In this document: piece after piece, positions 1,004 to 52,592 of the stretch
How positions within the stretch are numbered: the stretch's first letter is position 1
Layout of the letters: every line of letters starts with the position of its first letter
Assembly: GCF_913773735.1 (NCBI RefSeq)
Contig: NZ_CAJYEB010000012.1
Coordinates: 1 to 64,000, forward strand
Direction: 5' to 3'
Length of the DNA: 64,000 nucleotides
From: an uncultured Massilia sp.
GTDB taxonomy: Bacteria > Pseudomonadota > Gammaproteobacteria > Burkholderiales > Burkholderiaceae_D
Position numbers and translations under genes: made by a program
The notes under the pieces: model-generated
Told to the model about the DNA's origin: nothing
Database searches by the model: none
Seen by the model: the letters and a program-made list of their open reading frames with translations, nothing else

Positions 1004-1042
1004 AAAAAAAACCGCCTCTTCCTGGCGGAGAGAGGCGGAGGG
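1004..1042 (-). terminator. intrinsic terminator of small RNA copy 1
   Basis: Read on the minus strand, CCGCCTCTCTCCGCC pairs partly with GGAAGAGGCGG and is followed directly by eight T residues. The orientation fits only a leftward transcript. The insertion sequence begins immediately beyond the T run. Confidence 0.65.
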
Positions 1043-1158
1043 GAGAAGTATTCCTCGAAGGCTGGACCGCGTCCCGCACTGCCCCCACAGCGTGCGCGAC
1101 ACCGTCCAGCCCCGGGCGACGACGTCGCCTTGGAATGGAAACCACTGTAGCAGGATCT
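1004..1158 (-). ncRNA. candidate Fur-controlled small RNA, copy 1
   Basis: On the minus strand a Fur box (1174-1192) overlaps a promoter with a TACATT -10 element at 1170-1165. About 155 nt later comes an intrinsic terminator: a GCCTC...GAGGCGG hairpin ending in a run of T at 1004-1011. A 7-bp stem, GCTGGAC (1061-1067) with GTCCAGC (1104-1110), encloses a smaller GCAC/GTGC stem whose loop contains CTGCCCCCACAGC (plus-strand reading). A second copy with the same architecture lies at 8860-9016. The reading frames across the conserved block differ between the copies, so a peptide is unlikely. By analogy with RyhB, PrrF and NrrF it would be made when iron is scarce. The targets are unknown and the exact 5' end is inferred. 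Confidence 0.6.
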
Positions 1159-1173
1159 TTGGCGAATGTAAAC

Positions 1174-1192
1174 GAGAATGATTATCATTCAT
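1174..1192 (-). promoter_or_regulatory. Fur box upstream of small RNA copy 1
   Basis: GAGAATGATTATCATTCAT is a close match to the 19-bp Fur consensus, an inverted repeat of GATAAT-type hexamers. It lies just upstream of and overlaps the inferred -35/-10 region of the leftward small RNA. It is also about 115 bp upstream of the rightward TonB receptor, so Fur bound here could act on both. Confidence 0.7.
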
Positions 1193-3493: not shown

Positions 3494-3724
3494 GGGCTGT
3501 TCGCGTTGGGGAATCAGGACGCGGTCCGGCCGCTTGCCGTACTGGACCGCTGCCCGCCGCAGCAGTGCCGGCGTCGCCAACCGCCTGTCGTCGACCGCCT
3601 GGTGTCGACCGCCTGTCGTCCGCCTCGACGCTGGCCGGCATCGTTGCCTGCCCATGCGTTGCCTCGGCAACGGGCAAGACCGCCAGGACCGGCGCCGGTT
3701 CGCCCAATGAACGCGAACAGCGCC
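3494..3724 (-). mobile_element. MITE-like internally deleted derivative of the IS1595 element
   Basis: The segment is about 231 bp. Its right 80 bp (about 3645-3724) match the non-coding end of the IS at 921-1003 almost throughout: both have ACGGG(T/C)AAGAC, CCGGTTCG and AACGCGAACAGCGCC. Its left part matches the transposase 3' region seen at bases 1-35 (GCCGGCGTCG then CCGTTTGTCGTC-like sequence). The ends carry an inverted GGGCTGTTCGCGTT / AACGCGAACAGC pair. The transposase body is missing, so movement would need the full element in trans. A short GTCGACCGCCTG duplication lies inside. I could not define a clean target duplication. Confidence 0.65.
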
Positions 3725-3824
3725 ATGCGGGTCGCGCCGGAGAGATCCTGGCGCTGGATCAAATTGCATCATGGCAACAGGCCTATCCTGAGCCGGTCAC
3801 TACCGACCGATCAGGAGGCTTGAA

Positions 3825-7151: not shown

Positions 7152-8714
7152 TCAGCCGGGCAGGCCGCGGGCGGCCTGCATCTCCTGCACGAACGTCAGT
7201 TCGATGAACTCGTCCGGCCGCGCCACCGCGACGTCGACCGAGACTTTCATCACGCCGTCGAGGACGTCCATGCCCGTCATGGTCGCGCCGATACCCACGC
7301 GGACGCGCCAGGCGTCGGCCGCCCGCGCGCCGGCCAGCACGCCGGCCGCCCACTGCGCGGCCAGGAAGCGCCCGATCGTGTCCCGGACGTGCGCCCAGGT
7401 GTGCGCATCGTTGGCCCGTAAGGCACAGGTGCCCAGGAAGGCAGCGATGGAACGCTCCAGCATGATCGTGGTGCGCAGCACGCTGATGTAGCGCCAGTCC
7501 TGGCTATTGGCGTCCAGCGTGCGCGCGCCCCAGACCAGTACGCCGTGGCCGGGGAAGGTGCGGATCGCGTTGACGGCGAGGCCGTCCAGCGGCGCGTTCA
7601 GCGTGGCCTGGGCGGCGTCGTCGATGCGCACGGCCGGCGCCAGCGCGGAGATGATGGTCGTGTTCGCGGGCGCATGGTTGACGCCGAAGGTCGTGTCGTT
7701 GCGCACGAACACGCCGGCCATCGCGCCGGCGGGCGGCAGCAGGTTGACGCTGGCGGCGACGTCGGCCATCGCCTGCCGGTACAGCGGCGAATGCGCCAGC
7801 AGCGCCTGGTGGCTGGTACGCACGGCGTCGCCCCGGGCCGCCGCGAGGCCGTCGACGATGGCGGTGTAGGGCGCGTGCTTCGGGTCGGGCGTGCCGTCGC
7901 GGCGCGGCGGGAACAGCTGCGCCGCCTCGGCCCGCAGGCCGGCCTGCAGCGTGGGCAGCGTCGGTGCGGACAGCCAGGAAAAGTCGATGGCGCCCGGGCC
8001 GACGACCGTGGTGTTTAGCCACGGATAGTAGGCCATCCCGTACCTGCGCTCGGCGCCGGCCGCGCCGAGCAGGGCGCGCAGGCCGGCGCTGCCGGTCACC
8101 GGGTCGTCGGGGCCGCCGTCCGGCGCGCGCCAGCCTTCGCGCACGTCCAGCAGCGCGACGCGGTCGCGCCGCGCGCCGCACTGCCGCAGGGCCGCGCACG
8201 ATACGGCCGCCCAGCCTTGCGCGTCCAGCATCACCGCGTCCGGCACGACGATCATGGTCGTCCCCTCGTCCTGGCCGATCGCCGCGAGGCCGGCGAGGAA
8301 GGCTTGCGCATCGGGCGGCCCGCCGTTCGCGAGGACGTCGGCGTAGGTGCCGATCGAGACGATGTTGCACGCGCCGCCGCCGTTGTCGAAGAACAGCTGC
8401 AGGCTGTAGTAGAGGTTGAAACGCGGCGCGTCGGCCGCGGCGCGCAGCGGCGGCACCGCGCTCGTGTCGGCGGCGTAGTCGAAGCGCGGCCGGGGCGCCC
8501 CGCGCGTCGCGCCGTCGGGGTCCGCGAAGGTGTCCTGGAACTGCGCCATCGACGTGATCCGGACCGGCGTGGCGACCAGCGTGCGCCCGCCCTGGCTGGC
8601 CGATTCGGTGAAACCGACGAAGGCCGGGATCGCGGTCGGCAGAGCCAGTATCGCATCGGGTTCGTCGCTCGTCGCCTGCACGTACACGCCGGGCGTCTTC
8701 AATTGCATGGACAT
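7152..8714 (-). CDS. phage-type contractile tail sheath protein, orphan
   Basis: The 520-residue protein starts at the ATG at 8714, behind CAGGAG. The N-terminus (KTPGVYVQ) and the segment IPAFVGFTESA are typical of tail sheath proteins of Myoviridae and contractile injection systems. The C-terminal part (GHGVLVWGARTLD, RYISVLRTTIMLERSI) matches the conserved sheath core domain. It would assemble around a tail tube, but no tube, baseplate, spike or terminator gene is near. In this window it sits between two TerD-containing genes on the other strand. It may be a remnant, a domesticated sheath, or part of a system encoded elsewhere. Confidence 0.85.
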   Translation of the reverse strand: MSMQLKTPGVYVQATSDEPDAILALPTAIPAFVGFTESASQGGRTLVATPVRITSMAQFQDTFADPDGATRGAPRPRFDYAADTSAVPPLRAAADAPRFNLYYSLQLFFDNGGGACNIVSIGTYADVLANGGPPDAQAFLAGLAAIGQDEGTTMIVVPDAVMLDAQGWAAVSCAALRQCGARRDRVALLDVREGWRAPDGGPDDPVTGSAGLRALLGAAGAERRYGMAYYPWLNTTVVGPGAIDFSWLSAPTLPTLQAGLRAEAAQLFPPRRDGTPDPKHAPYTAIVDGLAAARGDAVRTSHQALLAHSPLYRQAMADVAASVNLLPPAGAMAGVFVRNDTTFGVNHAPANTTIISALAPAVRIDDAAQATLNAPLDGLAVNAIRTFPGHGVLVWGARTLDANSQDWRYISVLRTTIMLERSIAAFLGTCALRANDAHTWAHVRDTIGRFLAAQWAAGVLAGARAADAWRVRVGIGATMTGMDVLDGVMKVSVDVAVARPDEFIELTFVQEMQAARGLPG

Positions 8715-8859
8715 CGCATCATTCTCCTGTGGTGGGCGGCGCCGCGCCCGACCAGGCATGGTAGTCCAGGTTTTTCTCGTTGGAAAGATCTATCGACCAG
8801 GAGATGGCACCGCAGGCGCGCAGCCTTGCATGCCGATGCCGGTCCACGAGCGGGTGGCC

Positions 8860-8899
8860 AAAAAAAAAAGCGCCTCTTCCCACGAAGGGAAGAGGCGGG
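8860..8899 (-). terminator. intrinsic terminator of small RNA copy 2
   Basis: On the minus strand, GCCTCTTCCC and GGGAAGAGGC form a 10-bp perfect stem with a TTCGT loop, followed by GC and ten T residues. This is the clearest factor-independent terminator in the window and fixes the direction of the small RNA. Confidence 0.85.
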
Positions 8900-9016
8900 G
8901 AGGACGCTCCTGCCCGGCCCGGAACCCATCACGCACTGCCCCCACAGCGTGCGCGGCGTCTTCCCGGCCGTGCCTGGCAGGATTGCCTTGGAACGGAGAC
9001 GACTTTACCAAGGTTT
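8860..9016 (-). ncRNA. candidate Fur-controlled small RNA, copy 2
   Basis: This copy has the same layout as that at 1004-1158: a Fur-like palindrome (9029-9047), a TACATT -10 (9028-9023), about 157 nt of transcript and a perfect intrinsic terminator. It shares GCCTTGGAA (8985-8993) and a 23-nt identical block (8933-8955, containing CTGCCCCCACAGCGTGCG) with copy 1. The sequence around the block differs, yet GGCCCGGAA (8916-8924) still pairs with TTCCCGGCC (8961-8969) with one mismatch, replacing the GCTGGAC/GTCCAGC stem of copy 1. This pair-preserving change argues for a functional structured RNA. The frame across the block is not kept, so it is not a peptide gene. Confidence 0.65.
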
Positions 9017-9028
9017 ATCCCGAATGTA

Positions 9029-9047
9029 AATGAGAATACGTCTCATT
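9029..9047 (-). promoter_or_regulatory. Fur-like box upstream of small RNA copy 2
   Basis: AATGAGAATACGTCTCATT has perfect 7-bp arms (AATGAGA/TCTCATT) around five bases. It matches Fur half-sites less closely in the centre than the other boxes. It sits directly upstream of the conserved TTTACATTCG promoter segment shared by both small RNA copies. Confidence 0.6.
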
Positions 9048-9103
9048 CGCGAAATTGGCGACGGGATCATGCCGTGCGCATGACGCGGGCGGCGCTGGCC
9101 CGC

Positions 9104-10699
9104 TCAGCCGGCGATGCCGTCCGCTTGCGGCGCGTCCGCGCCGTGGACGCAGACCCGGTCGCGGCCGCCGTGCTTGGCCGCGTACAGCGCCGCATCGGCA
9201 GCCACGACCAGCTCGTCCGGCGTGCCGGACCAGGCGCGCAGCGCGGCCGTGCTGGCGACGCCCAGGCTGACCGTCACGCAGCCGCCGGGGTTGTCGCGGT
9301 GGGGGATGGCCAGCGCGCGGATGGCGGTGCGGACCTCGTGCGCCACGGTCGCGGCGCCGTCCGCGTCCGTCTCCGGCAGCACCAGTGCGAATTCCTCGCC
9401 GCCGTACCGGGCGGCCAGGTCGCTCGGACGCTTCTGGTGGGCCAGCAGGATCTTGCCGATGCTGCGCAGGCAGGCGTCGCCGGCGGCGTGGCCGTAGCGG
9501 TCGTTGTAGGACTTGAAGTGGTCGACGTCGAGCATCACCAGCGTCAGCACCGCCCCGTGCCGCTGCGCGCGCGCGCATTCCTGGTGGATCGCCTGGTCGA
9601 ACGCGCGGCGGTTGGCCAGGCCGGTCAGGCCGTCCCGCAGCGCCTGCTGCGACAGTTCCCGGTTGGCCTGCGCCAGCCCCGCCGTGACCAGCTGGAGCTG
9701 CTGTTCCAGCCCGTCGCGGATCGCGAGCTGGCGCAGCAGGCGCCGGCTCAGCCAGACCTGGAGCGCGACGACGGCGAGCAGGGCGGCCCCGGCCTGGATG
9801 GCCGAGCGCGTCCAGCCCGCGTAGATCTCGTCGTCGGACAGGCCGACCGCGATGATCAGCGGGTAGTCGCCCAGGTGGCGGTAGCTGTACAGGCGCGTCA
9901 CGCCGTCGATCGGCGCGGTCAGGATGCCCGATCCGGACGGCCCGAGCGTGCGGTACAGCCGCATCAGGGGCGCGTCGGCGATGTCCTTGCCGACCAGCTT
10001 TTCCTGGAACGGCCGGCGGTACAGCAGCCGGCCGTCCGCCGTCGCGAACAGGACGGTGCCCGTGGCGCCGACGTTGAGCTGGTCGTACACGCGCTCGAAC
10101 AGGTTCAGGTGCATGGTCGCGAGGGCGATGCCGGCGAAGCTGCCGTCCGCGTGCTGCAGCCGGCGCGAGATCGGCACCACCCACGTGCCGGTCGTGCGGC
10201 TCACGACCGGAATGCCGATATGGGTCTGGATCCCCGGATGGTCGCGGTGATGGACGAAGTAGTCGCGGTCGGCGACGTCGAACGCGACGTGGCGCACCGA
10301 GCTGGCGACGACCTCGCCGCGCGCATCGAACACGAAGAGGCCGTTCAGCTCCGTGGCCTTGGCCCCCAGCCCCGCCAGCCGGTTCGCCAGGCGCGCCCGG
10401 CGGTCGCGGTCGAGGCCGTCCGCTTCGGCGTCCTGCGCCACGCTTTCGAGGATCAGCTCGGCCGAGCGCATCGCGGTGCGCGTGTACGACGCCAGCACCT
10501 GCGCCATATTGCTGCTGTAGCGTTGCGCCGACTCGACGCGCTGGCGCCGCGACGACCACAGTTCCCAGACCGACGTCGCGACGGTCAGCAGCACGGCCAG
10601 CGTCACCAGGATCACGACCAGCACGCTCGCGGGACGCTTCTTGCTGCTCAACACCGCGATCTGCAATTCCGGAACGAGGACTGCGGAATCACTGGGCAT
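9104..10699 (-). CDS. membrane diguanylate cyclase with periplasmic Cache-type sensor
   Basis: The 531-residue protein has two membrane spans (about residues 25-45 and 305-325) bracketing a periplasmic domain that resembles a double-Cache sensor (FVFDARGEVVASS, VGATGTVLFATADGRLLY). A short coiled coil and a GGDEF domain follow. The active site YGGEEF is intact at 432-437, and the motif GLTGLANRRAFD marks the start of the domain. It should make cyclic di-GMP from two GTP in response to an extracellular small ligand. The region upstream of the ATG lacks an obvious ribosome-binding site, so the start is less certain. It lies directly upstream of small RNA copy 2, in the same direction. Confidence 0.88.
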   Translation of the reverse strand: MPSDSAVLVPELQIAVLSSKKRPASVLVVILVTLAVLLTVATSVWELWSSRRQRVESAQRYSSNMAQVLASYTRTAMRSAELILESVAQDAEADGLDRDRRARLANRLAGLGAKATELNGLFVFDARGEVVASSVRHVAFDVADRDYFVHHRDHPGIQTHIGIPVVSRTTGTWVVPISRRLQHADGSFAGIALATMHLNLFERVYDQLNVGATGTVLFATADGRLLYRRPFQEKLVGKDIADAPLMRLYRTLGPSGSGILTAPIDGVTRLYSYRHLGDYPLIIAVGLSDDEIYAGWTRSAIQAGAALLAVVALQVWLSRRLLRQLAIRDGLEQQLQLVTAGLAQANRELSQQALRDGLTGLANRRAFDQAIHQECARAQRHGAVLTLVMLDVDHFKSYNDRYGHAAGDACLRSIGKILLAHQKRPSDLAARYGGEEFALVLPETDADGAATVAHEVRTAIRALAIPHRDNPGGCVTVSLGVASTAALRAWSGTPDELVVAADAALYAAKHGGRDRVCVHGADAPQADGIAG

Positions 10700-52528: not shown

Positions 52529-52547
52529 TGAAAATGATTCTCATTAG
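52529..52547 (+). promoter_or_regulatory. Fur box upstream of flavoprotein reductase
   Basis: GAAAATGATTCTCATTAGC shares AATGATTCTCATT exactly with the box before the TonB receptor. It lies 45 bp before the start codon, so the reductase should be induced under iron limitation. Confidence 0.78.
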
Positions 52548-52592
52548 CGATATGATGCCCAGTTGCATCCACCCCCACGAGGTCCGCTTCCC

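Follow-up and report, generated by a model that had tools for sequence, protein, structure and literature searches.

Two predicted small RNA genes

The window analysed here, 64,000 nucleotides (nt) of a contig from an uncultured Massilia sp., carries two minus-strand units that have the layout of stand-alone small RNA genes, at positions 1004–1192 (copy 1) and 8860–9050 (copy 2). In each, a Fur-type box and a TTTACA-N17-TA(C/A)AGT promoter are followed by a nested hairpin, whose 23-nt core is the same in both, and by a terminator with a T run. An earlier reading of the same DNA (the original prediction) had placed both units here, on this strand and with these parts, and our scans confirmed it. 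Several of the parts resemble those of fiu, the gene for the catecholate siderophore receptor Fiu. In the list below, R2 is a hairpin-only model built from seven fiu 3′ untranslated regions (3′UTRs) of other genomes, without window sequence so as to avoid circularity, and the fiu matrix is a weight matrix of fiu promoters described further on.

1174–1192, minus strand: Fur-type box of copy 1 (ATGAATGATAATCATTCTC), agreeing with the consensus at 15 of 19 positions
1144–1172, minus strand: sigma-70-type promoter of copy 1, TTTACA-17-TACAGT, fiu-promoter-like (promoter scan and fiu matrix)
1132–1143, minus strand: fiu-like 5′ leader of copy 1 (GGTTTCCATTCC), up to the putative junction with the part that resembles a fiu 3′UTR
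1004–1137, minus strand: predicted small RNA of copy 1, about 134 nt, ends estimated from promoter geometry and terminator
1059–1113, minus strand: fiu 3′UTR-type nested hairpin of copy 1 (top among the 154 window matches of R2, with 40.5 bits and E 2.5e-6)
1081–1091, minus strand: apical loop with closing pairs GCTGTGGGGGC, candidate target-pairing site
1004–1038, minus strand: intrinsic terminator of copy 1 (hairpin 1012–1038, T run (T8) 1004–1011)
9032–9050, minus strand: weaker Fur-type box of copy 2, agreeing with the consensus at 12 of 19 positions
9002–9030, minus strand: promoter of copy 2, TTTACA-17-TAAAGT, fiu-promoter-like (promoter scan and fiu matrix)
8990–9001, minus strand: fiu-like 5′ leader of copy 2 (CGTCTCCGTTCC), from comparison with fiu promoters and leaders
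8860–8995, minus strand: predicted small RNA of copy 2, about 135 nt, ends estimated in the same way
8916–8970, minus strand: fiu 3′UTR-type nested hairpin of copy 2 (R2, 27.5 bits, E 0.0016, second of 154 window matches)
8860–8897, minus strand: intrinsic terminator of copy 2 (hairpin 8871–8897, T run 8860–8869)

Fur boxes were scored on both strands of the 64 kb against a 19-base-pair consensus, by which the box of copy 1 is the tied second-best distinct site. A TG precedes the −10 element in both promoters. The promoter scan found two sites in 900–1310, the other one being on the plus strand, and one in 8760–9104, compared with 0.1 per region in shuffled sequence; terminator-like sites by themselves are no commoner than expected, shuffles giving 0.5 and 0.6 per region. 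The original prediction put the transcript at about 155 nt. Because the −10 element of copy 1 ends at 1144, promoter geometry gives about 130–135 nt instead. The 140-nt transcript regions fold better than their dinucleotide shuffles (z −4.77 for copy 1 and −3.37 for copy 2), and the two copies are 70% identical over 187 bases. A third stand-alone copy was found in the same genome neither by DNA search nor by covariance search, both with first-look filters.

By sequence and structure, then, this is a real pair of Fur-type small RNA genes. As in the RyhB-like class, a Fur-type box lies directly upstream of each predicted promoter, overlapping or next to it, the box of copy 2 being weak. Neither unit reads as the leader of a downstream gene, because its own terminator closes it ahead of the next open reading frame (ORF). 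Stem covariation speaks against a coding small RNA.

A constant loop and a covarying stem

The two copies share their 23-nt core, at 1075–1097 and 8932–8954, without a single difference; allowing up to three mismatches, 100 shuffles gave a mean of 0.00 matches. The original prediction had inferred that this block would be the target-pairing or structural core. The conserved unit is the apical GC(C/T)GUGGGGGC rather than the entire block, the outer bases changing in compensated pairs. When the core pattern was searched in 392 genomes of the family with up to three mismatches, 28 matches appeared in 26 genomes. All 28 were inspected, and a stem with a terminator was present only at the two in our genome and at one of the two in genome G052. 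There the core reads CCGTACGCTGTGGGGGCAGTACG, with outer stem bases changed in pairs and the loop retained. A loop-plus-T-run pattern matched 75 of the 392 genomes, among them five further ones with the same layout (G015, G018, G022, G023 and G053); we took up these five, G052 and our own genome, and judged the rest from the printed match, which in some cases was incomplete.

From eight sequences (our two copies, G052 and the five further genomes) we built R1, a covariance model of the whole unit. It was searched with Infernal's stricter filters, at the loss of some weak matches, against 56 genomes of the genus and 336 others of the family. Matches with E < 1e-4 occurred in 8 of the 56 and 0 of the 336; they added genome G012 and a partial match in our own genome's fiu 3′UTR (E 7e-6). 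A further 28 genomes gave weak matches only (E 5.6e-4 to 0.1), and the seven loci inspected among them had no G-rich loop.

The resulting alignment holds nine hairpins in seven distinct rows. Bases pair in 93.8% of its cells, and 10 of the 19 pairs show two-sided changes. The covariation score is 0.536, a value reached by none of 500 shuffles, and slid versions score 0.058–0.178. The apical GC(C/T)GTGGGGGC, by contrast with the stem, is kept in all nine hairpins with no variation beyond C/T, and this holds for G012, which was found by the model rather than by the loop bait. That the loop stays constant while the stem varies suggests pairing of a sequence-specific kind. Together with promoter and terminator, the covariation supports the original prediction's structured, Fur-type stand-alone small RNA in two copies.

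Entire units are another matter. A DNA search with copy 1 matched 3 of the 62 genus genomes used for the DNA and Fiu searches (E up to 1e-4), and none of these was a second genome with an entire unit; matches outside our genome were at promoter level only, to the fiu promoter in G031 and to a Fur box in G003. An exact 18-mer search of a named genome collection returned six records, none with such an architecture.

The hairpin in fiu messages of relatives

In all seven outside cases, from seven genomes, the hairpin follows the stop codon of a TonB-dependent receptor gene and precedes the terminator of that gene. The receptors of G022 and G052 are Fiu (1007.6 and 1000.8 bits, cut-off 686), and a Fiu protein search identified the remaining five as the same gene. 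The original prediction had set conservation outside coding sequence in relatives as a test, and these seven fiu 3′UTRs supply it. They have the arrangement of a 3′UTR-derived small RNA, a conserved RNA within an mRNA 3′UTR that shares the terminator of the message.

Fiu is present in 46 of the 62 genus genomes, and the loop (up to one mismatch) in 7 of 44 inspected fiu 3′UTRs of 300 nt each. Our own genome's fiu 3′UTR keeps the terminator and a shorter stem but has no G-rich loop. In a tree of 28 Fiu proteins our genome is sister to G052 (support 1.0), and G052 retains the loop. Carriers of the hairpin are scattered among six non-carriers within one clade of this tree, some deep nodes of which are weak (0.09, 0.61); such scatter would fit an old feature that was lost several times.

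Hairpin-less fiu 3′UTRs at five loci (L119, L120, L121, L125 and L157) hold short inverted repeats like CGTCATTCCCGCGAAAGCGGGAATCC. Possibly these are REP-like and have replaced the hairpin.

Both ends of each unit resemble fiu

Applied to the window, R2 ranked copy 1 first and copy 2 second; the next match reached 20.2 bits (E 0.059). Direct alignment points the same way. The body of copy 2 aligns to the G052 fiu 3′UTR with a score of 109, above that of copy 1 with copy 2 (95); copy 1 scores 75 against the same 3′UTR, and the best of 300 shuffles was 34 for each copy. Copy 2 also exceeds shuffles against the fiu 3′UTR of its own genome (53, shuffle maximum 40).

The upstream ends tell a similar story. 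Fourteen fiu promoters of the clade share a Fur-type box, TTTAC(A/T), 17 nt and TA(A/C/G)AGT, followed a few bases on by GTT. We built a weight matrix from them and scored only the part after the Fur box. On both strands of the window the two highest values fell on copy 2 (+30.2) and copy 1 (+16.9); the next place scored +6.8. As controls we used 25 receptor loci of our own genome, one of which is fiu and several of which are partial matches; four other receptor promoters with a Fur-like box scored −8.9, −25.7, −39.6 and −45.4. By blastn the copy 2 promoter matches our own fiu promoter (77% over 47, E 0.004) and the copy 1 promoter that of G031 (81% over 47, E 2.2e-5). A GTTCC block in the leader of copy 2, ATTCC in copy 1, recurs in 7 of the 14 clade fiu leaders.

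Each copy therefore looks like a fiu gene with the ORF missing, since R2 ranks the copies top and their promoters and first nucleotides are the best matches to fiu in the window. That in each unit a fiu-type promoter with its leader, reaching to about 1132 in copy 1 and 8990 in copy 2, runs directly into a fiu 3′UTR is in our judgement a well-supported reading of the sequence. By tblastn, no fiu ORF remnant appeared in the window at a significant E-value beyond a paralogous receptor.

This paralogue is the siderophore receptor that the original prediction had noted beside copy 1. It does adjoin copy 1; the RNA itself appears to derive from the mRNA of another receptor, fiu. We rejected an origin from the neighbour, which is only 25% identical to the Fiu of G052, and the Fur-box receptor promoters of our genome other than that of fiu score far lower than the copies. 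No such RNA was found near the receptor at the ten orthologous loci scanned (L231–L240), where three weak model matches (E 0.005–0.09) are terminators without the loop.

Proposed origin and mechanism

We think it probable that the two copies are stand-alone, Fur-repressed small RNAs made from the two ends of a fiu-type gene and acting in trans through the loop. The parts, the covariation, the likeness of both ends to fiu and the distribution were computed; Fur binding, transcription, use of Hfq, action in trans, targets and the order of events are what we infer. The ancestral form was most likely the 3′UTR of fiu mRNA, and in relatives a similar RNA could be freed from that 3′UTR by cleavage, as BrrF is from hemP mRNA. 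In the window the order would be Fur box, promoter, a leader of about 12 nt, fiu 3′UTR hairpin and terminator. Fur would repress the copies in iron-rich conditions; under iron scarcity, an RNA hairpin of ∼130 nt with a 3′ U tail would be made. Most likely this RNA would act in trans with Hfq, which the genome encodes, its apical loop GC(C/T)GUGGGGGC pairing with C-rich sites in iron-metabolism mRNAs. In this species, whose fiu 3′UTR has no G-rich loop, the loop would be carried by the two independent copies.

How the units arose we can propose only tentatively, at a little short of even confidence. A duplicated iron-receptor gene would have lost its entire ORF, perhaps when short CCGA repeats of the leader and the 3′UTR recombined, so that a Fur switch drives a regulatory tail; the parent 3′UTR would then have lost its loop, the role passing to the two independent copies. 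The copies have TTCCAAGGC where the G052 3′UTR has CCGAGGC and 5 of the 14 fiu leaders have TTCCGA. A short repeat may thus have guided the deletion, though the two closest leaders are without it.

A number of observations weigh against the proposal that the copies are trans-acting RNAs derived from fiu. Stand-alone copies occur in one genome only. R2 finds nothing significant at the fiu loci of our genome and six non-carriers (best 18 bits, E 0.12), the alignment of copy 1 to the own fiu 3′UTR scores 32 where shuffles reach 35, and the R1 match at the own fiu locus may rest on the terminator. Left out in turn, the 14 fiu promoters score 34.2 to 70.3, and both copies lie lower than all of them; the copies therefore appear to have drifted below the whole set. 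The Fur boxes of the two copies do not resemble those of fiu (14.3 and 8.7 versus 32.9 to 40.4), that of copy 2 is weak, and GTTCC is missing from the fiu leaders of our own genome and G052. The invariance of the loop is partly a matter of ascertainment, as five members were found by the exact GTGGGGGCA pattern. Exact 11-nt complements of the loop are not enriched in our genome (11, of which 2 are self-matches, versus 13 in a reversed control). Four complement sites recur between relatives (in G022, G023 and G053, this one in a conserved coding start; in G022 and G023; in G012 and G052; and in G012 and G053; flanks compared by eye), and none of them is common to our genome.

Part of this evidence would also suit decaying remnants, a promoter and 3′UTR left after ORF loss and transcribed without function: the units are confined to one genome, the loop-complement scans found no target, and the end of an IS1595-family element abuts copy 1. 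Yet two copies were retained, and despite 30% divergence both keep the −35 element, the 17-nt spacer, the −10 element, the loop, the long compensated stem and the terminator, so we hold decay to be unlikely. It is more doubtful still that the hairpin is only a cis-acting stable 3′ end, for protection or termination, with the free copies as decoys or by-products. Its position directly ahead of the fiu terminator in seven relatives would suit that role, but protection by a stem would not require the loop sequence to be conserved, and the free copies have no message to protect. The reverse history, in which a small RNA gene came first and was later captured into the fiu 3′UTR, would equally place the same module in both settings. 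We regard it as very improbable: seven fiu 3′UTRs in seven genomes stand against two free copies in one, the free copies bear a fiu-like promoter and leader, and no outgroup was seen with a free gene and a hairpin-less fiu.

Comparison with known small RNAs

RyhB, PrrF and NrrF are iron-sparing RNAs repressed by Fur, and PrrF exists in duplicate copies. The window units resemble them in standing alone directly behind a Fur-type box and, like PrrF, in being duplicated. They differ in their apparent origin from the ends of fiu and in having no match to these families: no Rfam family, RyhB, PrrF and NrrF included, reached its gathering score in the 64-kb window, in keeping with the original prediction that the RNA is not obviously related to them by sequence. 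Sub-threshold Rfam matches in 900–1400 at E up to 5, to suhB (13.7 bits, gathering score 41) and HOTAIR, are not credible.

The nearest known system in biology is BrrF of Burkholderia cenocepacia, which, in the passages that describe it, is an iron-limited RNA that cleavage releases from the 3′ end of the Fur-controlled hemP mRNA, without a Fur box of its own (PMC7377471). The same passages have it act on genes of the tricarboxylic acid cycle and oxidative stress, and substituting two neighbouring bases close to its 5′ end weakened or removed the effect for most tested genes (PMC7377471). As far as sequence can tell, the window units would likewise be betaproteobacterial, iron-limited and Fur-controlled RNAs whose source is the 3′ end of a message for iron uptake. 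Compared with BrrF as described there, their mRNA is fiu rather than hemP, with the relatives' hairpins behind fiu and the window copies free-standing; each copy has a Fur-type box and promoter to itself, and the terminator should be part of the RNA. RyhB and PrrF, by the same source's account, lie directly behind a Fur site (PMC7377471). The predicted units thus combine both kinds, a 3′UTR origin as in BrrF and an own Fur-type promoter as in RyhB and PrrF. IpeX of prophage DLP12, as the passages on it report, is a small RNA processed from a phage porin transcript (PMC5069750, PMC12197685). It shares with our units a source within an outer-membrane protein transcript; according to those passages it is not an ORF-less copy, and Fur goes unmentioned in them. 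In the open-licence literature, with some of the searches loose, we found no description of a small RNA from a fiu 3′UTR or of an ORF-less one derived from a receptor gene.

To our knowledge, the origins of new bacterial small RNAs have mostly been inferred from finished products. Here there is a likely parent gene: both its ends are recognisable, it persists in this genome minus the loop, and a sister species still has the module in position. The transition from the tail of a message to an RNA gene of its own is therefore directly testable and, if our reading is true, a route to new regulatory RNA genes has been caught between sister species. The analysis also points to a candidate iron-responsive RNA without an Rfam match, and supplies a loop motif for target searches.

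Genomic surroundings

An IS1595-family transposase ORF (PF12762) lies within 3–1004, and the element end at 913–1004 abuts the terminator of copy 1. An 82% identical element end occurs beyond the receptor, at 3634–3725 (window 3567–3725). By this arrangement the receptor and copy 1 appear to sit between two same-orientation element copies or remnants, like a composite element. A strong Fur-like box at 1238–1256 lies upstream of the receptor at 1306 and another at 52530–52548; they match 14–15 and 15–16 of the 19 positions, depending on strand.

Near copy 2, positions 7152–8717 encode a tail-sheath-like protein (PHROG tail sheath, E 1.2e-35; no Pfam match). R1 matched none of the loci of its relatives (43–50% identical) in four other genomes, at E up to 1. 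The tail-sheath-like gene is flanked by a TerD/vWA gene and a GGDEF gene, and a second TerD gene lies beyond.
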